From: a virus
Strand: one strand, 5' to 3'
DNA: 37,987 bases
IMG/VR virus record: IMGVR_UViG_3300042553_000307
Coordinates: 1-37,987 of that record
Within the stretch, counting starts at the first letter, position 1; each line of letters opens with the position of its first letter. A model generated the notes under the pieces. It saw nothing but the letters and a program-made list of their open reading frames with translations. It ran no database searches and was not told where the DNA came from. This document shows positions 7,344 through 36,654 of this stretch, piece after piece. The position numbers were made by a program, and so were the translations under genes.

Positions 7344-7588
7344 CGCTCTCGGATTTCGTCTGGCTGGCAATCGGTGAAACACTTCTCGCGGGCACTTTCG
7401 CTCTCGGGATTCTTGTAGGGGTATCTCTCAATCGAAAGGGGCCAAGGAATGGCGACTGCAACACGGGAACGGAAGGCAACTGGAATCACGCTGGCAACGT
7501 CAACGCTCAGGGCGGCACTTGCCGACGTGCTCAGGGCTGTGCCGACAAGGCACGCGAAGCCAATCCTGGGCAACGTCAGACTAGGTGA
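7340..7588 (+). CDS. putative small membrane protein overlapping the clamp gene
   Basis: 82 aa, starting at an ATGA overlap. Residues about 5-30 (VWLAIGETLLAGTFALGILVGV) form one transmembrane segment followed by a Lys/Arg stop-transfer patch (NRKGPR). The remaining residues are Gly/Asn/Gln-rich and lie in a second frame over the first 140 bases of the sliding-clamp gene. Translational coupling at the start and the clear membrane helix argue that at least the N-terminal part is real. The tail could merely be the readable shadow of the clamp gene. A frame error between the two is less likely because the clamp has its own start and ribosome site. Confidence 0.5.
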   Translation: MTLSDFVWLAIGETLLAGTFALGILVGVSLNRKGPRNGDCNTGTEGNWNHAGNVNAQGGTCRRAQGCADKAREANPGQRQTR

Positions 7589-8567
7589 CGGGCTGCTGAC
7601 GGGCACGGATCTCGAGGTGCGTATTGACCGCGAGATTGACTACCACGGCGACGCCATGCTGCTGCCGGCTCATCGGCTCAGCGCCATCCTGCGGGCCGCG
7701 ACCGGCGACGAGGTGTTTCTGATTCCGAAGGAAAGCAGCGTAACGGTGAAGTGCGGTGCTGGCTCGTGGACTCTACCAACGGAAGACGCCGCAGAGTTCC
7801 CAACGTGGGACGCTGGCGATCTGAAGGCAATCTGCCGCCTGCCGGCTGACCAGTTCTGCCGGGCCGCCAAGGCCACGACGTACGCCACGGACGCCGAGTC
7901 CAGCCGCTACGCACTGGGCGGCGTCATGCTGGACGTGGAGTCAACCGCAGACGGTTCGCGGCAGCACTGGGTTGGCACTGACGGGCGACGCCTGGCGTGC
8001 GTGGAGACTGAGAGCGACGATGCCGTTGACGCCTCGCAGACCATCGTGCCGGCCAGGTTGCTGGCGACGGTGGCAAGCATGGCCACGGGTGACGGCAGCG
8101 TTCAGGTTGAGTCCAACGGAAAAGAGGTCCGCTTCTCGCTGGACGGCTGCACGATCACGGGCCGGCTCGTGGACGGTCGCTATCCACGGTGGCGTGACGT
8201 GGTTGGCGAGGCGGAAGGCGAGCCTACGGTGATTGACGTGGTGGAGCTGCTCCAGGCGGTGCAGTCCGCAGCCATCGTCACCAGCGAGCAGTCCAAGGGC
8301 ATCAGCCTGACGTGGACGGCCAACACGCTGGTGCTCGTGGGCCGCTCGAGCGAGTACGGGGAGAGCAAGGTGATCTGCCCGACGATCGCGGCGGGCTCAA
8401 CGGCAAGCACGAAGCTGGACCCGAAGTATCTGGCCCAGTTCTTGGCGAACCTGCCAGCCGACGAAGAGCCGCATGTTGACGTGTACGTGAAGGACGCCCA
8501 GAGCCGCGTGCTCCTTCGCTGCGGCCCGTACACCGGAGTCATCATGCCTCTGGCGGAGGACGCATGA
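7449..8567 (+). CDS. dnaN: DNA polymerase III beta subunit (sliding clamp)
   Basis: 372 aa, the usual length of a bacterial clamp. It forms a dimeric ring that holds the polymerase on DNA. Recognisable segments: RAVPTRHAKPILGNVRL (about 29-45), GTDLEVRID (about 52-60), RYALGGVMLDV (second domain), GTDGRRLACVE, GRLVDGRYPRWRDV (about 238-251), and a C-terminal LLRCGPYTGVIMPLAEDA where clamps carry the IMPMR-type ending. ATG at 7449 follows GCCAAGGA. No polymerase or clamp loader is encoded nearby, so it presumably works with the host holoenzyme. It overlaps the next gene by ATGA. Confidence 0.93.
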   Translation: MATATRERKATGITLATSTLRAALADVLRAVPTRHAKPILGNVRLGDGLLTGTDLEVRIDREIDYHGDAMLLPAHRLSAILRAATGDEVFLIPKESSVTVKCGAGSWTLPTEDAAEFPTWDAGDLKAICRLPADQFCRAAKATTYATDAESSRYALGGVMLDVESTADGSRQHWVGTDGRRLACVETESDDAVDASQTIVPARLLATVASMATGDGSVQVESNGKEVRFSLDGCTITGRLVDGRYPRWRDVVGEAEGEPTVIDVVELLQAVQSAAIVTSEQSKGISLTWTANTLVLVGRSSEYGESKVICPTIAAGSTASTKLDPKYLAQFLANLPADEEPHVDVYVKDAQSRVLLRCGPYTGVIMPLAEDA

Positions 8568-12972: not shown

Positions 12973-13275
12973 ATGCCTGCATACGAAGCCACGCCCGCCG
13001 AGCTCGAACAGTACGGATCGAAACTCACGATATGGCAGCAACTCGCCCTGCTGCAGGCTTGGTCGCCGCTCATTGGCTACGGCCAGCGGTTCATCAACGA
13101 GGCAGACCCGTACAAGCGAAGCATCATCGTCAGCGAGGCTTCCGAGTGGCTTGCGTCCAAGACAAACTCCCAGGCCGATGACCAGCTGGTGCGTTTGCTG
13201 GGCGATCTGTTGAAGACCAAGGAAGGTGAAGCCCTGGTTCGGTGGTGCCTGCTGCAGGTGGAGGCCGCCCGTTGA
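12973..13275 (+). CDS. hypothetical helical protein, 100 aa
   Basis: ATG at 12973, two bases after the previous stop. Predominantly alpha-helical (LTIWQQLALLQAWSPLIGYG; ADDQLVRLLGDLLKTKEGEALVRW). No signal peptide, membrane segment or motif recognised. It is linked to the next gene through a TTGA overlap. It belongs to the cluster of small genes before the peptidase and membrane proteins. Confidence 0.65.
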   Translation: MPAYEATPAELEQYGSKLTIWQQLALLQAWSPLIGYGQRFINEADPYKRSIIVSEASEWLASKTNSQADDQLVRLLGDLLKTKEGEALVRWCLLQVEAAR

Positions 13276-13880
13276 GCGATGAAAGCGTCATACGCCTCGC
13301 AGCCGTGGTGGCGGCGGTTGCTCTGCTGGCCGCCCCGTACCGGGACCGGATCGCTGGCTGGCTCTCTACGGCCGCCCAGGCCTGCTACGCCGAGCGTGCC
13401 ACCCTCGGCCGAATCGCCGCCGCACTCCTCCTAGTGGCTGCGGCTTGGGGCAAGCTGCCTGTGCCAAGGCTTCCGGCGGCTCCTGCCGTCAGCGTGAACG
13501 TGGAGACTCCGAGCGTGGAGATGCAGCAGCTGGTGAAGCCGGTGGCCGAGGCTCTGAAGTCGCTCCCAATGGGCGACCGGATGCTATGGGCTCAGGTCTG
13601 GAGCAAGGCAGCCGTGGTTGTGGCCGGCGACGCGGTGACAACGGAAGTGGCGTTCACGGATACTCGCTCGCTGCGGATGTTCACCACGCTGGCACTCGAC
13701 ATCGCTTGGCGTCGGATTGGGCAGCATCAGCCGGGAAGCAATGAGCCGCTCAGGAATGCCGTGGAGACTGCCTACGGGCAGGCTGTTGGCACGGACGTGG
13801 TTGCAGTCACTGCTGACGTGCGAAGCCGCTACACCGCATTTGCGAAGGCCGTAGCGTGGGCCGGCGTCGGCAAGGAGTGA
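13272..13880 (+). CDS. membrane-anchored hypothetical protein, 202 aa
   Basis: A TTG at 13272 overlapping the previous TGA gives an N-terminus MSDESVIRLAAVVAAV; an upstream GTG at 13242 is less likely. Two hydrophobic segments lie at about residues 7-23 (LAAVVAAVALLAAPY) and 45-62 (IAAALLLVAAAWGKLP), followed by a soluble domain of about 135 residues. That arrangement gives a membrane hairpin with the domain on the cytoplasmic side if both segments span. No catalytic motif. Its position before the peptidase and holin-like genes suggests a lysis or envelope function, but this is inference. Confidence 0.6.
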   Translation: MSDESVIRLAAVVAAVALLAAPYRDRIAGWLSTAAQACYAERATLGRIAAALLLVAAAWGKLPVPRLPAAPAVSVNVETPSVEMQQLVKPVAEALKSLPMGDRMLWAQVWSKAAVVVAGDAVTTEVAFTDTRSLRMFTTLALDIAWRRIGQHQPGSNEPLRNAVETAYGQAVGTDVVAVTADVRSRYTAFAKAVAWAGVGKE

Positions 13881-13883
13881 CGC

Positions 13884-14807
13884 ATGGCCGACCATGGCAT
13901 GGGCTACCTGCCCGATCCAGAAGGTGCTGAAGCGTTCGTTGCGACGTTGCCACACCCCACGCTTGCGACTGCCGGCCCAGACCTAAAGGCCGCAGACCAA
14001 GATGTGATGCTGTACCCGGCTCTGCTGGCGTGTGACAGCAAGTGGAAGCGTGGCTCTCAGGGCAACGTGGGCTCGTGCGTCGGCTGGGGCGCGAGCCTTG
14101 CGGTGGACGTGCTCGCCGCCTGCGACATTCACTGGCGGAAAGAGCCAGAGGCATGGAAGGGCCGCACGATTGAAGCCAGTTTGTATGGCTTTTCCCGAGT
14201 TGAGGCTCGCGGGCAGAAGAGCAACCAAGGCGGCGACGGTTCCACGGGCTTCCATGCCGCCAAGGCCATTCGGGATTTTGGCTCGCTGCATTACGGCGTG
14301 GACTACGGCGGCACCGTGATCCGCGAGGAAGGCAAGCAGCAGCGGGACCGCGAGTGGGGACGCAATGGCGTGCCAAACGTGCTCGAGCCGTTTGCCAAGG
14401 AGCGGCGGTGCAGCGAAACGACGCTGGCCACAAACTTCAATGAGGCTGCCGCAGCGATCAGCAACGGCTACCCGGTGGTGGTGTGCAGTGGCCAGGGCTT
14501 CAGCATGAGCCGAGACGATGACGGTTTTTGCAAGGCCGGTGGCGTTTGGTGGCACGCAATGTGCCTGATTGGCCTGCGTGGTGGCAAGCGTCCAGGCCTG
14601 CTGTGTGCCAACTCGTGGGGAGAGTCCAACACGGTTGGCAAGCATTACCCGCACGACATTCCGCCTGCCGTCCGCAACTGTTCTTTCTGGATCGACGCCG
14701 ACGTGTGCGACCGCATGCTCTCAGGGCGTGATTCCTACGTCTACGCCGGCTACAGCGGGTTCAAGCCGTCCACGCTCCCAGATAACTGGCTCCGAGGTGT
14801 GCTGTGA
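13884..14807 (+). CDS. papain-fold (C1-like) cysteine peptidase
   Basis: 307 aa. The complete papain active site can be read: Q59 and C65 in SQGNVGSCVGWGAS, with the same six-residue Gln-to-Cys spacing as papain Q19-C25; H224 in GGVWWHAMCLIGL; and N243 in CANSWGES, the NSWG motif. No signal peptide or propeptide is obvious, so it acts in the cytoplasm, in the virion or after release through membrane damage. Neighbours are small membrane proteins, so a role in lysis, virion entry or host-protein cleavage is plausible. It shares a GTGA overlap with the lipoprotein-like gene. Confidence 0.82.
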   Translation: MADHGMGYLPDPEGAEAFVATLPHPTLATAGPDLKAADQDVMLYPALLACDSKWKRGSQGNVGSCVGWGASLAVDVLAACDIHWRKEPEAWKGRTIEASLYGFSRVEARGQKSNQGGDGSTGFHAAKAIRDFGSLHYGVDYGGTVIREEGKQQRDREWGRNGVPNVLEPFAKERRCSETTLATNFNEAAAAISNGYPVVVCSGQGFSMSRDDDGFCKAGGVWWHAMCLIGLRGGKRPGLLCANSWGESNTVGKHYPHDIPPAVRNCSFWIDADVCDRMLSGRDSYVYAGYSGFKPSTLPDNWLRGVL

Positions 14808-15043
14808 GATTTCTTATCTGCCTTGTTGTCGTGCTGATTGGCTGCGTGGCCACGCTGCCCGATGACCAGGGCGTATCAGCCGACATGGCATGCGAAACAG
14901 CCCGCATGGTGACGCAGCTTCGGCACGAGATCGCACCCACGCCGGCAAGCGACAAGTGCGACAACTGCGACGGCACCGGCAAGATCGGAGACGGCCGCAT
15001 TGTGCTTGAGTGCCCAGCGTGCAAAGGAACCGGCAAGAAATGA
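14804..15043 (+). CDS. lipoprotein-like small protein with two CxxCxGxG motifs
   Basis: 79 aa, GTG start at a GTGA overlap. The N-terminus MRFLICLVVVLIGCVATLP is hydrophobic and ends in LIGC, a plausible lipobox with the lipidated Cys at 14. The C-terminus has CDNCDGTGKIG and ECPACKGTGKK, two CxxCxGxG repeats as in the zinc-binding region of DnaJ. A predicted outer- or inner-membrane anchored protein with a minimal zinc ribbon is unusual. In its position between peptidase and holin-like genes it could be a spanin-like o-component, but the zinc motifs are not typical of Rz1. Confidence 0.65.
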   Translation: MRFLICLVVVLIGCVATLPDDQGVSADMACETARMVTQLRHEIAPTPASDKCDNCDGTGKIGDGRIVLECPACKGTGKK

Positions 15044-15384
15044 CGCTCGCCGACTTGGAAACGCACGTCTGGGATCGCCTGCCCACGCTCCAGCGTGTTG
15101 CCGGCCGACGCATTGCTAACCGTGTCGTGCGTCGAGCCGTCGCCGGCTGGCCCATCCCGGTGCTTGAGCAGTGCGACGATGCCGAGGCTGCCGTGGTGGC
15201 GAAGTACTACACCCGCACGGTGGAACGCTCAGTGCGTGCCGACATGCAGATGGGCTTCTTTACGCTGCTCATCTTCTCGGCACTGGTGCAAGAGATCGTC
15301 AAGATTCTTGTACGGTGGTGGATGGAGAAGAGCGAGAACCGCAGCCAGATGCGGCTTCTGTCCAGTGAGGCCCGCAATGACTGA
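15040..15384 (+). CDS. small membrane protein, 114 aa
   Basis: ATG at the ATGA overlap at 15040. Amphipathic, basic N-terminal 60 residues, then one hydrophobic segment at about 71-90 (FFTLLIFSALVQEIVKIL) followed by a charged tail (RWWMEKSENRSQ). One membrane span near the C-terminus. Holin or envelope-complex membership is possible given the adjacent second membrane protein, but there is no family hallmark. Confidence 0.6.
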   Translation: MTLADLETHVWDRLPTLQRVAGRRIANRVVRRAVAGWPIPVLEQCDDAEAAVVAKYYTRTVERSVRADMQMGFFTLLIFSALVQEIVKILVRWWMEKSENRSQMRLLSSEARND

Positions 15385-15619
15385 TGCTGCGAAGGAAACC
15401 GTTTACGGCATCATCGAGCGGTGGGGATTTCCCACTTTGGTAGCAATTGCTTGCGGCTGGGTGCTTCGCGCCGATGTTTTGCTCCCTCTTGTTGAGGAGC
15501 ACCGGGCTTTCGTGAAGAGCCTCAGCGAGACGCAGCGTGAGATCAGCAAGGCCGTGAGCGAGCAGACACGGCTGCTGTATGCGTTGCAGCCACGGGCCGG
15601 CGAAAGCCAGGAGAACTGA
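15377..15619 (+). CDS. holin-like small membrane protein, 80 aa
   Basis: ATG at 15377, inside the end of the previous gene. A hydrophobic segment (about 14-32, RWGFPTLVAIACGWVLRAD) is followed by a helical, coiled-coil-like region (about 37-66) with polar and charged residues (EEHRAFVKSLSETQREISKAVSEQTRLL). Small proteins with one N-terminal span and a coiled coil occur commonly in phage lysis regions as holins, holin inhibitors or spanin parts. The assignment is by size, topology and position only. Confidence 0.5.
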   Translation: MTDAAKETVYGIIERWGFPTLVAIACGWVLRADVLLPLVEEHRAFVKSLSETQREISKAVSEQTRLLYALQPRAGESQEN

Positions 15620-15622
15620 GCC

Positions 15623-16921
15623 ATGGCGATGAGTCCACGACTGCTGAGGCCAAGACAAACGCTGCACCCAGAAGCGGCGGCATGGGCGGCTCGAGTTGTG
15701 TCGAACGGCGGCAGTGTGAGCGGCACGACCCTCTCAGCCGTGTCTAAGTTCTGTGCGGCTATCGCATCGGCATCGCTTCGGGATCGCTTCTACCGGCTCA
15801 ACCTGTTCTGCGGCACGGGACTGAACGCCGCGCTGGTTCCGCTTTACCTGACGCCCGACAAGACGGTCACCAACCTGTTCCAGTTCGGCACAGACCCCAC
15901 CAACGCGGCGTGGCTTGCTGGCGGGAACGGCGCTATCACAAGAGCCGCAACGGCGGAGGTCGGGCCGCTTGGATATGGATACGCGACCAAACTCACAACG
16001 CCGTCAGCCCCGTTTGATGTTCGTCAGATGTACCAGCAGATGCCACTTGATGGGCGTCAGGTGACCGTGTCTGCGTGGATGAAAACAAACTCTGGAACTC
16101 GCCAAATCCAGTGGCTTGCTGGCAACGTATACTCCGACACCGTCACAGTCACAACAACGTGGCAGCGGTTCACAAAGACATTCACGCTTCCGACTTCTAC
16201 AGACGCTCGCACCGGCTTTTCGACCGTCAGCGAACTCAGCGATGCCGCAGGGTTCATTTACGTTTGGGGGATGCAGTGCGAGTACGGCGCGACTGCGACC
16301 TCGTACAACCAGCCGAGATACGGCAACACCACCGACACCAACGTGGGGCCGTTTGTCACTGGCGACTACGCGGAGACGGGGGCGAGTGGCGGGCTGGCGG
16401 CTGGAACTGGATCAAAGCACCTTCGCACAGGACTCACGCAAGCCAACGTCGGCGTGTCCAGTTGCCACCTTGCTTGCTATGAAATCGCGAGGGCGACTAA
16501 TGCTTATGCGAATCGCATTGGAAGCAGAGGTGCCGGCGACACTAATGAGCACGCGATCACCAACATCGATGTATCAACAACGATTGACTACGCCTCGTCG
16601 GCTATCGCCGGAAATCAACGCGCGAGATCGACTGGCTACACGCAAACAGGCGCGTTCTGGCTTGGCGTAAACACATCCGCTACGTCAGCCGCGATCTACA
16701 AGAACGGAGCATCTTCCGCAACGTCCACGCCTACGGCGCGTACAGCGCAAAGCGTGGAATACTATGTCTTCGCGCTCAACAACAACGGAGTCTTGGACTC
16801 TGCGCAGACCACTGGCCGGAGCGGCGGCTACAGCATCGGCTTGTCAATGACCGCCTCGCAAGCTGCCGCCTACTACACCGCCATGCAGGCATTCCAAACA
16901 GCCCTGACGAGGAACGTCTGA
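15623..16921 (+). CDS. tail fibre / receptor-binding-like protein
   Basis: 432 aa. The N-terminus (LRPRQTLHPEAAAWAARVV, then LRDRFYRLNLFCGTGLNAALVPLYL) looks like the virion-attached start seen in many aquatic phage adhesins. The middle (about 90-235) is a jelly-roll carbohydrate-binding-like domain ending in FIYVWGMQCEYGATATSYNQP, a very common fibre signature. The C-terminal third (about 245-430) is Ser/Thr/Ala/Gly-rich and concanavalin/LamG-like, with a TGDYAETG and LRTGLT start. It probably binds a surface glycan of the host. It lies before the packaging genes rather than after the tail genes, which is somewhat unusual. Confidence 0.75.
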   Translation: MAMSPRLLRPRQTLHPEAAAWAARVVSNGGSVSGTTLSAVSKFCAAIASASLRDRFYRLNLFCGTGLNAALVPLYLTPDKTVTNLFQFGTDPTNAAWLAGGNGAITRAATAEVGPLGYGYATKLTTPSAPFDVRQMYQQMPLDGRQVTVSAWMKTNSGTRQIQWLAGNVYSDTVTVTTTWQRFTKTFTLPTSTDARTGFSTVSELSDAAGFIYVWGMQCEYGATATSYNQPRYGNTTDTNVGPFVTGDYAETGASGGLAAGTGSKHLRTGLTQANVGVSSCHLACYEIARATNAYANRIGSRGAGDTNEHAITNIDVSTTIDYASSAIAGNQRARSTGYTQTGAFWLGVNTSATSAAIYKNGASSATSTPTARTAQSVEYYVFALNNNGVLDSAQTTGRSGGYSIGLSMTASQAAAYYTAMQAFQTALTRNV

Positions 16922-17966: not shown

Positions 17967-18047
17967 GTCGGATCTCTATGGCGTGCGTGGATACAAACCC
18001 CACGGTTTCCTCAAACGCACGCGGGGCCGAAATTGGGAGTTTGCAAC

Positions 18048-18506
18048 ATGGGCCGGGGCCGCAAGCCGACGCCTAAGCCGCTACTTAAGCTTCGCGGCGC
18101 TCGCGTTAGGGGCCCGCACAAGTCAGGCATCGACGCGGTTCCTGGCATCCCGCCTGCTCCGCACTGGCTCTCGGATCTCGCCCGCGAGGAGTGGGAGCGA
18201 ATCGTGCCGATGCTTGAGGCGTCCAAAGTGATGAGCCCCAGGCACCAGCAGACGCTGGCAGCCTACTGCGATTCGCTTGCAGACATGATTGAGGCAGACC
18301 GTGAGCTCAAGGCCAACGGGGCCACGTTCATGGACGATCGCGGTAGGGTAAGCAATCACCCGGCGTGGAACCGCAAACGCGACGCGAGAAACCAGATGCT
18401 TAAGTTCGCGGCCGAGTTCGGCCTGACGGCCTCGGCGCTGGCCCGTGTTTCGGCGGTTGAGAATGGCCCGCAAGCAGACGAAGAAGACGCCCGAATGTTC
18501 GCTTGA
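18048..18506 (+). CDS. terS: terminase small subunit, P27 family
   Basis: 152 aa from ATG 18048; the upstream in-frame ATG at 18033 has no ribosome site. Typical P27 pattern: MGRGRKPTPKPLLKLRG at the start, then PPAPHWLSDLAREEWERIVPML (about 37-58) and HQQTLAAYCDSLADMIEADREL. It recognises phage DNA and feeds it to the large subunit. Overlaps the TerL ORF by about 44 bases. An 81-bp gap lies upstream. Confidence 0.88.
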   Translation: MGRGRKPTPKPLLKLRGARVRGPHKSGIDAVPGIPPAPHWLSDLAREEWERIVPMLEASKVMSPRHQQTLAAYCDSLADMIEADRELKANGATFMDDRGRVSNHPAWNRKRDARNQMLKFAAEFGLTASALARVSAVENGPQADEEDARMFA

Positions 18507-20028
18507 GCACCCATGCGAAAAGTGCTCCTCGTGTCTGGCGGTGCGTTTCTTCCACAAGCACCTGACGCACGCCAAAGGCGAGCTCGGCGGCAAGCCGTTC
18601 ACGCTTGAGCCGTGGCAGCAGGACTACGTGCGAAAGCTCTTCGCCACTGATGGCGACGTGCGCAAAGTCCGCACCAGCCTACTGGCGATTCCGCGCAAGA
18701 ACGGAAAGAGCAGCCTTTGTGCTGGCATCGCCCTCAAGCTGCTGATGGAGAACGAGCCCGGCTGTGAAGTCTATTCCTGTGCAGCCTCACGCGATCAGGC
18801 CCGGCTCGTCTTCGACATGGCCCGCGTCTACGTCGAGCAGTCGCCGGTTCTTCGGCAGCATCTCAAGGTTTACAGAAACGCCATCGTGCGGGAGGCGACG
18901 CACGGAACGTACAAGGCGTTGAGTGCGGAGGCCGGTATTCAACATGGGCTCTCGGCACATGGTGTCATTTTCGATGAGCTCCACGTCTCGAACCGCGAGA
19001 TGTGGGAAGTAATGCTGAGCAGCCAAGGTGCTCGGCGTCAACCGCTTACGGTCGCGCTCACCACGGCAGGATTTGACCGCAAAAGCGTCTGCTGGGAAAT
19101 CTGGAAATACGCTGAGGCTGTGGCCGCTGGCACGGTAAAAGACGAGACGTTCCTGCCGGCCATCTATGCCGCCCCGATTGAGGCCGATTGGAAAGACGAA
19201 AAAACGTGGGAGCGTGCCAACCCCAACCTAGGCGTCTCGGTACGGCTCGACTTCCTGCGGAGCGAATGTGCTCGAGCGGTTGAGATGCCGACGTATGAGA
19301 ACACTTTCCGGCAGCTGTACTTGAACCAGTGGACAGAGCAGAGCACGAGGTGGCTGCGAATGGATCACTGGGCCCAAGGTGACAAGCCATGCCCCGTGGA
19401 TCTCGCTGGACGCGAGTGCTGGGCCGGGCTGGACTTGGCCACGACGTTTGACACCACAGCCCTGGTTCTGCTGTTCCCGCTAGACGATGGCACGTTTTGG
19501 ATTGAGCCGCACTTCTGGATACCGAGCGACAACGCCCACCAGCGAGAGCGACGCGACAAGGTGCCGTACCTAACGTGGCATCGGCAGGGGCATCTGAACA
19601 TGACCGATGGCAACGTCACTGACTTTGACCAAGTGCGGTCAGACATCAACGCCATAGCCAGCAAGTACAAGGTCTGCGGCATCGGCCTGGACCCGTGGAA
19701 CTCCGCGCAACTCGGCCAACAACTGCAAGGCGACGGCCTTCCCATGTCAGACTTTCGACAGGGCTATGGATCTTTATCCGCGCCCTCGAAGCAACTCGAA
19801 AACTGGTGCGTGTCTGGAAAACTGATACACGGTGGGCACCCAGTGCTGTCGTGGCAGGCTTCCAACGTGGCCATCCAGCAGGATTCCGCAGCCGGAAACA
19901 TTAAGCCGAGCAAGGCCAAAAGCACAGAACGCATAGACGGCATCGTGTCGCTGGTCATGGCCATCGGGCTGTGGCAAAAGGCAACCGCAGCCACGCCGGA
20001 ACAGTCCTGGGACATGATGACGCTATGA
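18463..20028 (+). CDS. terL: terminase large subunit
   Basis: About 521 aa from ATG 18463, though this start is uncertain. N-terminal ATPase: Walker A in AIPRKNGKSS (75-84) and Walker B VIFDE (168-172). C-terminal RNase H-like nuclease beginning at CWAGLDLATTFDTTALVLLF (D324). It pumps DNA into proheads and cuts concatemers. Its N-terminus carries an extra Cys cluster (CSLEHPCEKCSSC, 12-24), possibly a small zinc knuckle, which is not part of the usual core. The stop shares ATGA with the portal gene. Confidence 0.95.
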   Translation: MARKQTKKTPECSLEHPCEKCSSCLAVRFFHKHLTHAKGELGGKPFTLEPWQQDYVRKLFATDGDVRKVRTSLLAIPRKNGKSSLCAGIALKLLMENEPGCEVYSCAASRDQARLVFDMARVYVEQSPVLRQHLKVYRNAIVREATHGTYKALSAEAGIQHGLSAHGVIFDELHVSNREMWEVMLSSQGARRQPLTVALTTAGFDRKSVCWEIWKYAEAVAAGTVKDETFLPAIYAAPIEADWKDEKTWERANPNLGVSVRLDFLRSECARAVEMPTYENTFRQLYLNQWTEQSTRWLRMDHWAQGDKPCPVDLAGRECWAGLDLATTFDTTALVLLFPLDDGTFWIEPHFWIPSDNAHQRERRDKVPYLTWHRQGHLNMTDGNVTDFDQVRSDINAIASKYKVCGIGLDPWNSAQLGQQLQGDGLPMSDFRQGYGSLSAPSKQLENWCVSGKLIHGGHPVLSWQASNVAIQQDSAAGNIKPSKAKSTERIDGIVSLVMAIGLWQKATAATPEQSWDMMTL

Positions 20029-21326
20029 GCGAAAACGCAGCCGCTGACTTCAAGATGTTCGACCTGCGTGGCATCGACTGGCCCGAAGTGAGTTCCAGCC
20101 GCACGCCTTCCGGCATCCGCGTCAACGCTGACAACTCAATGGCGTGCTCGGCCTACACGGCCTGCATCCGTGTCATATCGGATGCGGTATCTGCCCTGCC
20201 GCTGCACATCTACGAGCGGATGGCCAACGGCGGGAAACAGAAGGCCACGAGTCATCCTGTGTATCGGCTCCTGCACCAGCAGCCCAACCCGTGGCAGACG
20301 GCCCAAGAGTTCCGAGATTGGATGACCGGCATGTACCTCCACTACGGTGCGAGCTACGCCGAGATCCGCCCAGGTGCTCGAGGTGCCGTGTCTGAGTTGT
20401 GGCCGCTGCACTCCAGCCGCATGGAGGCAGAGCGGTTGACTGACGGCACGCTGCGGTATCGCTACCGCGAGCCAAGTGGCCAGCAGACGATCTACAGCCA
20501 GGAGCAGATCTTCGCCCTGCGATTCACGACCGAAGACGGCATCAAGGCGATCCCGACATACAAGATTTTCCAGAACGCCATTGGCCTGGCCCAGGCCCTT
20601 GAGACACACGGCAGTACGTACTTCGGCAACGGTGCCCGGCCCGGCATCGTGCTGGAGAGCGACAACCCGATTCCCATTGAGGCTGCCGAGCGACTCCGCG
20701 AGCAGTGGGAACGCATGCACCGTGGTGCCGATCGGGCTTTCCGCACAGCTGTGCTGCCTAACGGCGTGAAGGCCCACGAGCTCAGCGGCTCAAACGAAGC
20801 AGCCCAGATGCTTGAGAGCCGGGCTTTCCAAGTGGTTGAAATCTGTCGGGCGTTTCGCGTGCCGCCGCACATGATCCAGATGCTGGACCGCAGCACGTTC
20901 AACAACATCGAGGTGCAGGGCACAGAGTTTGTGCAGCACTGCCTGCTGCCGCACTTGAAGCGGTGGGAGGCCGCGATCAGCCGCGACCTAATCGTAGATG
21001 ACGAGAAATACTTCGCTGAGCACAGCGTGAGTGGCCTGCTTCGCGGCGACCACGCGAGCCGGTCTGCCTACTACGTTTCCGCCCTGCAGAATGGCTGGAT
21101 GACGGTGAACGAGATTCGTGAGCTTGAGAACCTCAACCCGATCGGCCCGCAAGGCGATCAGCACTTCATTCAGCTGAACATGACCACGCTGGAGAAGGCA
21201 GGCCAGGAGCCGCAAGATCCGCAGCCGATGCCGCAGGACACGCCGGGCGAGCCAGCGGACGGCACGCCAGAAGACGATGCCGAAGACACGACTACCGCCC
21301 AGGAGGACACGCCCGATGGAACTTGA
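20025..21326 (+). CDS. HK97-type portal protein
   Basis: 433 aa from the ATGA start at 20025. Family features: SACSAYTACIRVISDAVSALPLHIYER (about 38-66), RLLHQQPNPWQTAQEFRDW, GNAYAEI-like GASYAEIRPG, and the helix-rich VVEICRAFRVPPHMIQML segment (about 284-303). It forms the dodecameric ring at the capsid vertex. The tail (about 395-433) is Pro/Glu/Asp-rich and disordered. It overlaps the protease gene by 11 bases. Confidence 0.93.
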   Translation: MSENAAADFKMFDLRGIDWPEVSSSRTPSGIRVNADNSMACSAYTACIRVISDAVSALPLHIYERMANGGKQKATSHPVYRLLHQQPNPWQTAQEFRDWMTGMYLHYGASYAEIRPGARGAVSELWPLHSSRMEAERLTDGTLRYRYREPSGQQTIYSQEQIFALRFTTEDGIKAIPTYKIFQNAIGLAQALETHGSTYFGNGARPGIVLESDNPIPIEAAERLREQWERMHRGADRAFRTAVLPNGVKAHELSGSNEAAQMLESRAFQVVEICRAFRVPPHMIQMLDRSTFNNIEVQGTEFVQHCLLPHLKRWEAAISRDLIVDDEKYFAEHSVSGLLRGDHASRSAYYVSALQNGWMTVNEIRELENLNPIGPQGDQHFIQLNMTTLEKAGQEPQDPQPMPQDTPGEPADGTPEDDAEDTTTAQEDTPDGT

Positions 21327-21960
21327 GCGCCGCGACTTCGCCTTTGACGAGACTGACGAGCTCATCGTTGAGCAGCGTGCTGACGGCCGGGCAGCCATCA
21401 TCGGCTACGCCGCTGTGTACAACCGCATGAGCCTTGACCTGGGCGGGTTCAAGGAAGAAATCCTGCCGGGTGCTTTTGACAAGGTGCTGAGCCGCCAGCG
21501 TGGCAAGCAGGACGTGGTGGCCCTGTTCAACCATGACAGCAACATCGTGCTCGGTCGCACTTCGAGCGGCACGCTGGAACTCACGAGCGACAGCAAGGGC
21601 CTGCGGTACGTGGTCACTCCGCCCGTGAGCCGTGCCGACGTACTTGAGCTCATCGCTCGCAAGGACGTTGCCGGCAGTTCATTCGCGTTCACGGTTGGCA
21701 AAGACGGGGAAGCGTTCCGCACTGGCGACGGTGGCCAAGCCATCCGCCAGATCCGCGAGGTGAGCGGCCTGTACGACGTTGGCCCGGTGCTCACGCCTGC
21801 GTACCCGTCAACGTCTGCCAGCGTCGCCATGCGTTCCTACGAGGCATGGATTGCATCGCAGTCCGCCGAAGAGCCGGCAGTTCGGGCGGTTAGTTCGCGT
21901 TCGGCCTTGCGGGGCGTCGCCGCCGCCTGGGCTGCCACCTTAAGGCTCAAGAATGTCTGA
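21316..21960 (+). CDS. HK97-type prohead protease
   Basis: 214 aa from ATG 21316 with AGGAGGACACG before it. Seen: IIGYAAVYNRMSLDLGGFKEEILPGAFDKVL (about 28-59), ALFNHDSNIVLGRTSSGTLEL with the conserved His (about 73-93), the GSSFAFTV segment containing the catalytic Ser (about 118-125), and YDVGPVLTPAYPSTSASV near the end. It cleaves the scaffold domain of the capsid protein during maturation. Usual order portal-protease-capsid is kept. Confidence 0.93.
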   Translation: MELERRDFAFDETDELIVEQRADGRAAIIGYAAVYNRMSLDLGGFKEEILPGAFDKVLSRQRGKQDVVALFNHDSNIVLGRTSSGTLELTSDSKGLRYVVTPPVSRADVLELIARKDVAGSSFAFTVGKDGEAFRTGDGGQAIRQIREVSGLYDVGPVLTPAYPSTSASVAMRSYEAWIASQSAEEPAVRAVSSRSALRGVAAAWAATLRLKNV

Positions 21961-33324: not shown

Positions 33325-33612
33325 GTGGAAGATCACCACTTCACACTCAACGGCGACGAGCGGTGGCTAGTCCGTTTCACGGACCTCAAGGGCCAGGCGT
33401 ACGGCTACACCTTTTCGCAGAAGTCCAAGCGGCCACGCATCTTGATTCACAGCGGGCTTAAGGGCCGGCACAAGCTCACGATCCTGACGCACGAACTACT
33501 CCATGCGCTTTTTCCAACCGCAAGCGAGGAGCACGTCGAGCAGGCCGGCAAGGACATCAGCAAGGTGCTCTATAGCCTGGGCTACAGGGAGGTAAACGAT
33601 GGCGAAGGGTAG
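33325..33612 (+). CDS. HExxH zinc metallopeptidase-like small protein, 95 aa
   Basis: GTG 33325 after GAAAGGGCGAGCC. Motif HELLH at 56-60 in ILTHELLHALFPTASEEHVEQ, with acidic residues E68/E69 nine residues later, which fits the gluzincin-type third ligand. Upstream strands LVRFTDLKGQAYGYTF and RPRILIHSGLKG are consistent with a minimal metzincin-like fold. Much shorter than SprT or ImmA proteins. Might be a toxin-antitoxin-like or host-protein protease; no target known. Overlaps the next gene. Confidence 0.68.
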   Translation: MEDHHFTLNGDERWLVRFTDLKGQAYGYTFSQKSKRPRILIHSGLKGRHKLTILTHELLHALFPTASEEHVEQAGKDISKVLYSLGYREVNDGEG

Positions 33613-35712: not shown

Positions 35713-36654
35713 TCATCTCGGCCTGCCCGGCCCAGCATCTGGCCTGTCTTCCGGCCGCTGCGTGATGTCTGGCAGGTAGTCGAGGTTGGATTCCCTGCCC
35801 GTGATCTCCTCGTCGTAGTAGTGGGTTTCCGCCATCTCCTCGCTGCTGTGCCCCAGCTGCTTCTTGGCAGACACGCCTGCTTTCTTGAGGTAACTGGCCG
35901 TCGATTTGCGGATGCTGTGAAACGGGTGGTACGGCACCCCCGCTGTGCGACACAGCACCCGCAAACTTCCGTAGATGGACAGGAACTCACGATCCTCCAC
36001 CCAAGGCCACACACGCTCGCTGGGGGCCCCTTTGCACATAGCCAGCATCTTGGCCAGTTCTGGCGTGATCGCCCGTGTAATCGTCTCCCTGTGCCCTTTA
36101 CGGGTGGCAGCCAGGAACGTCAGCGTGTGCCGCTCAAGATCCACCTCTGACCACCGGAGCTCGAGCACGGCACCAATGCGCTCGCCCGTCTGGAACATGG
36201 CGAGAATCTTGGTCACCCAGTACCAGGCGGCTGGCTTGCCGCATATGTGGCCTTTGCGGTGGCGTGCGGCCTCCACCAGCTGGGACAGTTGGGTGGCGTT
36301 GAAAGCCTTTGGCACCGGCTTAGGGACGCGAGGCCGGGCGTAGTCGGGGAACTCCACCAGCTCGCCGTTGCTGCGTTTCCATCGTTTCTTGGCCAGCCAA
36401 GTCCACAGGCTCCGAAGGTGGGCGCTGTCTTTCGCCAGCGAGGCCGGCGAGATCTTCTTCCACTTGCTGTGCTGGGTAGCCTGCCGCCACCTCAGGAACT
36501 TTGCGGCCGTTAAATCATCCAGATCGTCCACCGTGGGCTCATGCCCCAGGTAGTCGCGGAACCTGTCCAGGCTGCTCAGGTACATCACCACCGAGCGGTC
36601 AGAGAGCCCTTTGAGCGGGGCCACTCGGTCAATCAGCAAATCCCTCAAAGTCAT
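35713..36654 (-). CDS. int: tyrosine-type site-specific integrase
   Basis: 313 aa, the only - strand gene. N-terminal SAM-like domain about 1-110 (SDRSVVMYLSSLDRFRDYLG). Catalytic domain with R159 (FQTGERIGAV), K186 (ATRKGHRE), H246-x-x-R249 (PFHSIRKS), H269 (QLGHSS) and the nucleophile Y279 or Y280 (ETHYYDE). It integrates and, with an excisionase, excises the phage. ATG at 36652-36654 has GGGAGGCGTGCG before it on the - strand. Upstream is a predicted promoter with a CTGTACAG element between its boxes. Confidence 0.93.
   Translation of the reverse strand: MTLRDLLIDRVAPLKGLSDRSVVMYLSSLDRFRDYLGHEPTVDDLDDLTAAKFLRWRQATQHSKWKKISPASLAKDSAHLRSLWTWLAKKRWKRSNGELVEFPDYARPRVPKPVPKAFNATQLSQLVEAARHRKGHICGKPAAWYWVTKILAMFQTGERIGAVLELRWSEVDLERHTLTFLAATRKGHRETITRAITPELAKMLAMCKGAPSERVWPWVEDREFLSIYGSLRVLCRTAGVPYHPFHSIRKSTASYLKKAGVSAKKQLGHSSEEMAETHYYDEEITGRESNLDYLPDITQRPEDRPDAGPGRPR

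Follow-up and report, generated by a model that had tools for sequence, protein, structure and literature searches.

A predicted papain-type cysteine peptidase with a constant membrane-protein cassette in environmental tailed phages

The peptidase gene, its relatives and its predicted fold

The window, i.e. the whole 37,987-nt stretch of freshwater phage DNA analysed here (IMG/VR record IMGVR_UViG_3300042553_000307, positions 1–37,987), carries at positions 13884–14807 of the plus strand an uninterrupted and intact open reading frame of 307 amino acids, which we assign to the C1A papain-type cysteine peptidases on the basis of a fold model and an alignment of relatives. A sequence-only reading of this DNA had noticed a complete papain-type catalytic set in the encoded protein; Q59, C65, H224 and N243, as well as the NSWG motif at residues 243–246, were confirmed at these positions and the observation stands.

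Used as a single query, the window peptidase matched 73 loci in IMG/VR, while an alignment of 25 sequences matched 178 stretches and a broader alignment matched 318 stretches that encode relatives; the best 80 of the 178 and the best 80 of the 318 were retained. The peptidase gene is present in all 249 loci collected at this stage (the window copy counted, some contigs represented twice). They yielded 235 full-length frames and 151 distinct sequences, the most distant of which is 46% identical to the window protein. Among 50,697 named phage records no match to the peptidase was found at E 1e-5, and a further peptidase query gave only short matches to tail fibres (E 0.7). The earlier statement that such enzymes are uncommon in tailed phages thus holds for sequenced isolates, but fails for environmental phages in view of the 318 IMG/VR stretches and a published survey (PMC10380794) that describes xylellain-type C1A enzymes from both Myo- and Siphoviridae.

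Alignment of the window protein with 64 full-length relatives (65 sequences, 9 partial loci of the 73 excluded) showed Q59, C65, H224, N243, S244, W245 and G246 to be invariant. In the larger set, which comprises 151 distinct full-length sequences and counts the window protein among them, the catalytic Gln, Cys and His are each present in 151, the Asn in 150, S244 and W245 in 150 each and G246 in 136. The four putative catalytic residues are therefore found in the order known from C1A peptidases and are conserved among the relatives. In one relative (L115:5576-6442) an in-frame gap removes the NSWG stretch and retains Q, C and H; either the contig was misassembled here or the enzyme has been inactivated in nature. 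The spacing of 6 from Q to C, taken earlier as part of the papain signature, applies to the window protein and altogether to 75 of 151 sequences; the other half shows a step of 5, counted in 75 sequences and read by eye in the remaining one (QPIGSC). A median dN/dS of 0.13 (200 pairs sampled from 685 eligible) indicates that the gene is under purifying selection.

Profile methods recognised little in this protein. The three matches given by Pfam (E 0.026 to 0.66) were weak and stayed below cut-off, PHROGs gave nothing at E 1, and a sequence search of the PDB returned one unrelated match (E 0.7). Further PDB queries by sequence or profile reached at best E 0.3 to 1 with unrelated proteins, and one of them returned no match. 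The Pfam profile Peptidase_C1, which is a detection aid and no defining trait of the C1A family, was absent from the matches of the window protein and hit 0 of 48 records, i.e. the window and 47 relatives with a length of at least 33 kb (control: 3 of 14 genomes).

A first AlphaFold2 model, for which 25 close sequences were used, was of low quality (pLDDT 50.8, pTM 0.60); the 50 Foldseek matches listed for it were C1A enzymes by title. It was replaced by a second model from 82 diverse sequences, which is confident (pLDDT 91.0, pTM 0.90), and both models point to C1A folds. The best VIA-align match of the second model is xylellain (PDB 3OIS; Z 21.7, rmsd 2.7, 235 residues aligned, 15% identity, model residues 1–291). 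Ranks 2 to 50 comprise procathepsins, pro-Der p 1, propapain, Cwp84 and others with Z 16.1 to 18.7, and all 50 PDB matches listed are C1A enzymes by title. The papain fold is characterised by a helix bearing the catalytic Cys and, after it, a beta-barrel half with the His and the Asn, and the match to this fold implies that Q59, C65, H224 and N243 would cluster in space. The papain fold which the sequence-only reading had suspected is thus confidently predicted, and we consider it nearly certain that the fold of the protein is of the C1A peptidase type and that its active site is intact.

The enzyme had also been described as free of signal peptide and propeptide. No signal peptide is evident, with 0 of 151 sequences reaching a hydropathy of 1.6 within the N-terminal 45 residues of the aligned domain, and a SAR-type N-terminal signal anchor helix was likewise found in 0 of 151 members of the window clade. 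The absence of a propeptide is less certain. Matching proenzyme structures mostly begin at model residue 1 to 7 and mature enzymes at about 37, so that residues 1–36 ahead of the catalytic core (13884–13991, plus strand), which lie within the range aligned with several proenzymes, may form a short built-in prosegment. Within this candidate prosegment G7, Y8, F18, L22 and A30 are invariant in 82 sequences.

A fixed cassette around the peptidase

The peptidase gene belongs to a cassette of fixed order, consisting of a membrane protein, the peptidase, a Cys-knuckle lipoprotein and two further membrane proteins, and each of the partners was found wherever the flank was long enough (125 to 148 loci); all genes described here lie on the plus strand of the window. 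The upstream membrane protein (13272–13880, 125 of 125 loci with enough flank) has 202 amino acids, a TTG start and a hydrophobic N-terminal part. Its gene stops 3 bases upstream of the peptidase gene, and its hydropathy is at least 1.5 in 142 of 148 cases, with a value of 1.95 in the window. It is preceded by an equally constant neighbour (12973–13275, 117 of 117 loci with enough flank) encoding a 100-aa protein with no hydrophobic segment (hydropathy 0.76). On the downstream side the peptidase stop overlaps the start of the next gene (GTGA), and a start-like codon overlapping this stop was found in 132 of 151 loci. This gene (14804–15043, 148 of 148 loci with enough flank) encodes a small lipoprotein-like protein of 79 amino acids, in which a VLIGC lipobox is followed by a double Cys knuckle; the paired Cys pattern is present in 151 of 151 and the lipobox-like pattern in 121 of 151 loci, while Pfam gave weak matches to Anti-TRAP and DnaJ CXXCXGXG, both under cut-off. 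A DnaJ-like Cys knuckle at the C-terminal end is odd for a lipoprotein-like protein, and a thiol or metal role is possible.

The two remaining members follow with overlapping frames. The start of the first (15040–15384, 144 of 144 loci with enough flank) overlaps the preceding stop (ATGA) and the gene encodes a membrane protein of 114 amino acids with a hydrophobic segment at about residues 71–91. Its hydropathy is at least 1.5 in 151 of 151 cases and it has no match in named phages. Overlapping it by 8 bases, the second (15377–15619, 141 of 141 loci with enough flank) encodes a small membrane protein of 80 amino acids with a hydrophobic segment near residue 21 and, as judged by eye, a coiled-coil-like tail behind it (hydropathy at least 1.5 in 147 of 150, 1.96 in the window). 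By shape only this protein is holin- or inner-spanin-like; it has no Pfam or PHROG match. The adjacent gene at 15623–16921, with a weak match to the carbohydrate-binding family CBM_4_9 (E 7.5e-4, below cut-off), occurs in 50 of the 120 loci whose flank is long enough and is a variable neighbour outside the core cassette.

Four of the five fixed partners are hydrophobic or lipoprotein-like. A cytoplasmic enzyme serving host takeover or counter-defence, as could be imagined from the missing export signal of the window clade, would hardly be accompanied by constant membrane and lipoprotein partners, and the membrane anchors of the sister clade and of the plasmid homologue described below are equally out of keeping with such a role, which we regard as very improbable.

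The peptidase had been placed by the first reading in a lysis neighbourhood. This label is plausible as an interpretation. The cassette is rich in membrane proteins and includes a lipoprotein, but in the scanned ORFs of the window (smaller ORFs partly covered) Pfam and PHROGs recognised neither a holin or spanin nor a peptidoglycan hydrolase. None of the cassette partners matches a holin or spanin profile in either collection, and Amidase_2, Phage_lysozyme and Peptidase_M15_3 each hit 0 of 48 records, with positive controls in 6, 3 and 3 of 14 genomes, respectively. Absent profile hits for lysis genes are weak evidence, since the papain fold of the peptidase itself goes along with no Peptidase_C1 hit in the 48 records and a divergent endolysin could likewise escape the profiles. 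By eye, a 95-aa ORF at 33325–33612 (plus strand) contains the stretch THELLHAL, which resembles the HExxH motif of zinc metallopeptidases, and could be another candidate hydrolase.

The NlpC/P60 and CHAP folds are distantly related to the papain fold and cleave peptidoglycan. By analogy, the peptidase might be a true endolysin on a papain scaffold, whose C1A fold would cleave the peptide stems or cross-links of peptidoglycan, and this would account for the fact that no other endolysin was recognised among the scanned window ORFs and in the 48 records. Among viral models, the fold matched proteins named Peptidase C1 from uncultured Caudovirales and giant viruses and, more weakly, Lysin A proteins; some matching phage models are labelled N-acetylmuramidase fragment or peptidoglycan-binding-like, and these names are labels only. 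However, the structural matches are protein-cutting C1A enzymes, and Pfam recognised no cell-wall binding domain in the window peptidase. An endolysin of this kind appears improbable. NlpC/P60 and CHAP folds are absent among the structural matches listed and have no Pfam match in the window peptidase, although an affiliation with these families is still conceivable. The available text of one article (PMC10318531) names phage endolysins solely under CHAP.

Further genes of the window bear on the lifestyle of the phage. A RecT gene is located at 938–1627 and an integrase gene at 35713–36654 on the opposite strand (Phage_integrase, E 6e-10), and because of these two genes the phage is probably temperate; integrase and exonuclease genes found no match in the 151 loci. 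A DNA polymerase III sliding clamp (Pfam) is encoded at 7449–8567 (plus strand) with about 25% identity to its best matches in named phages. The contig ends (1–60 and 37928–37987) contain long T, C or G runs that look like assembly artefacts. The small and large terminase subunits (18033–20028, plus strand, PHROGs) mark the start of the packaging and head module, in which a head maturation protease is located at 21277–21960.

A temperate phage could employ an envelope-held peptidase together with the lipoprotein to trim host surface proteins such as receptors during lysogeny or infection, resulting in surface modification or superinfection exclusion. The envelope-type partners and the membrane anchor of the sister clade are compatible with this, as is a family 2 glycosyltransferase (Pfam) upstream of the cassette. 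The glycosyltransferase, however, is present in 18 of 95 loci with enough flank while the cassette is constant, and the unidirectional genes leading into the packaging module suggest late expression. We consider surface modification unlikely.

The sister clade and a planctomycete plasmid

A distant homologue on contig L251 led us to 118 IMG/VR stretches that match a sister-clade query and may overlap the 318 mentioned above; the best 80 of the 118 were retained. By profile, a relative is encoded at 80 of 80 of these loci, with NSWG in 80 of 80 frames, and the 56 distinct full-length members all share the active-site stretch QGIGDC. An N-terminal membrane helix precedes the domain in 55 of these 56 members, the exception beginning at a contig end. 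This predicted helix suggests that the peptidase acts outside the cytoplasm, and we find it rather likely that the enzyme works at or beyond the inner membrane.

The surroundings of the sister-clade gene are similar in kind. Directly after the peptidase, 35 of 60 loci encode a small hydrophobic protein of 83–85 amino acids, and in 47 of 60 a Cys-rich protein follows (loci with short flanks kept in both counts). The Cys-rich protein resembles the knuckle protein of the window by eye only; its motif was found in 46 of 80 loci, and the hydropathy is at least 1.5 in 20 of those 46. The gene order in L260 runs from the portal through the head maturation protease, two small hydrophobic proteins, the peptidase, a small membrane protein and the Cys-rich protein to the major capsid protein, where portal, protease and capsid were confirmed by PHROGs. 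The peptidase with hydrophobic and Cys-rich neighbours occurs in two genome layouts. Two distinct phage contigs carrying members of this enzyme family, L133 and L251 (genome G048), were binned into one alphaproteobacterial MAG.

The L260 location, flanked by the genes for head protease and capsid, the proximity to packaging genes in the window and the missing signal peptide of the window enzyme could all be understood if the peptidase were a virion or morphogenesis protease, which is packaged and processes a structural protein or aids DNA entry by cutting envelope proteins. Both genomes already encode a head maturation protease, however; no virion family is matched by the constant partners, which have a hydrophobic or lipoprotein-like character, and the N-terminal membrane helix of the relatives is unfit for a role in the head. 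A virion function is, in our estimate, rather unlikely.

Among 72,556 plasmids a single tblastn match was obtained, to pPLIM01 of Planctopirus limnophila (26.4% identity, 89% covered), whose E value of 0.07 is weak alone. The 82-sequence profile matched the reading frames of pPLIM01 with E 3e-11 (1.6e-11 in a further search), and the homologue is the hypothetical protein WP_013112484.1 (PLIM_RS21800) of strain DSM 3776. Judged by its 54 annotated genes, which include terminase, portal, a ClpP-related head protease, capsid and tail genes, pPLIM01 is a phage genome. Eight window proteins match it in the same order: the peptidase, TerS, TerL (40%), portal, head-tail connector, head closure and two more near the tail genes; the head protease and capsid of the window did not reach E 1e-3 against pPLIM01. 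The pPLIM01 peptidase has an N-terminal membrane helix. By eye, the next gene, which overlaps by 4 bases, encodes a membrane protein with Cys pairs, and the protein encoded upstream combines hydrophobic segments with a lipobox-like stretch; profiles of the window cassette partners gave no match on pPLIM01.

These gene matches point to a planctomycete as the probable host. For the large terminase, gut Firmicutes phages are nearer relatives (46%) than pPLIM01 (40%), and a planctomycete host is therefore not proven. An alphaproteobacterial host was considered and rejected. The sole matching GTDB contig belongs to an alphaproteobacterial MAG which also holds a second phage contig; the one match among 33 genomes of its order and the one match among 385 genomes of the class sample are that MAG itself, and for this reason the contig was judged to be mis-binned phage DNA. 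No host DNA was recognised by eye at the ends of five long phage contigs.

Proposed role and comparison with known systems

We propose, with a probability of roughly 40%, that the peptidase is a C1A endopeptidase which cuts host-envelope proteins for lysis or virion release. The xylellain-type enzyme would attack proteins of the cell envelope late in infection and thereby allow virions to exit. At least one of the small membrane proteins would let the signal-less window enzyme through the inner membrane in a holin-like manner, whereas the sister-clade enzyme would cross by its own N-terminal anchor; the Cys-knuckle lipoprotein would work at the outer membrane. In favour of a release function we count the fold and active site, the fixed partners, the membrane helices in the sister clade and on pPLIM01 and the fact that no peptidoglycan hydrolase was recognised. 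Against it we count that the window protein itself lacks an export signal and that no holin or spanin was recognised, that the sister-clade gene is embedded in the head module, where lysis genes are not usually located, that the upstream glycosyltransferase would fit surface modification equally, that the sister-clade Cys-rich partner is weakly hydrophobic, and that the window-partner profiles miss pPLIM01.

According to the accessible part of PMC5394234, P. limnophila possesses an outer membrane and a peptidoglycan layer. As C1A enzymes are not known to cut peptidoglycan, an unrecognised endolysin may exist in addition. Another planctomycete phage is released chronically and without lysis, as given in the available text of PMC10945688, and lysis can therefore not be presumed. 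This case and the head-module position in L260 led us to weigh the release role slightly lower and the virion role slightly higher. Our literature search on lysis genes of planctomycete tailed phages found, within the text accessible, only the chronic release just cited (PMC10945688). It is a doubtful extension of the release role that planctomycete phages exit through a protein-cutting system, in which a papain-type peptidase, carried across the inner membrane or fixed in it, would act with an outer-membrane Cys-knuckle lipoprotein and either take the place of a peptidoglycan-cutting endolysin or be indispensable alongside it. If true, this would be a further class of release enzyme beside glycosidases, amidases and inhibitors of wall synthesis. 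The exit of tailed phages from planctomycetes is little known, and with PLIM_RS21800 the question becomes testable in a cultivated host that is mutable and in which gene deletion works (PMC4910669, available text).

The kind of enzyme is known: as far as the accessible text of PMC10380794 goes, xylellain-type C1A peptidases occur in Myo- and Siphoviridae and tailed phages acquired short bacterial C1A peptidases. The window peptidase belongs to the same family and the same virus class as these published enzymes, with Peptidase_C1 hits in 0 of 48 records here. Our literature search found, within the text accessible, no paper on this lineage, its cassette or the planctomycete link, and these three are what the present analysis adds. 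A large family of phage papain-type proteases, missed by sequence profiles, can now be named together with a constant membrane and lipoprotein cassette.

The closest known structure, the C1A cysteine protease xylellain of Xylella fastidiosa, matches nearly the whole window protein, but shares 15% identity with it and is a bacterial enzyme with no phage cassette of fixed membrane partners. Cathepsins B, L, S and X, papain, Der p 1 and Cwp84 have the fold and the catalytic set in common with the window peptidase; they are secreted and mostly made with longer propeptides. WP_013112484.1 occupies the same position as the window gene, upstream of HNH, TerL and portal, and its Q, C, H and Asn could be placed by eye, whereas its 26% identity, the N-terminal membrane helix, a Q-to-C step of 5 and an inexact NSWG set it apart; its neighbours are window-like in shape (membrane protein and Cys pairs, by eye), not by profile. 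Endolysins are exported in two modes, as canonical enzymes released by holins or as signal-anchor (SAR) endolysins. The window clade without a helix and the sister clade with one parallel these two modes, although endolysins cut peptidoglycan and have other folds.
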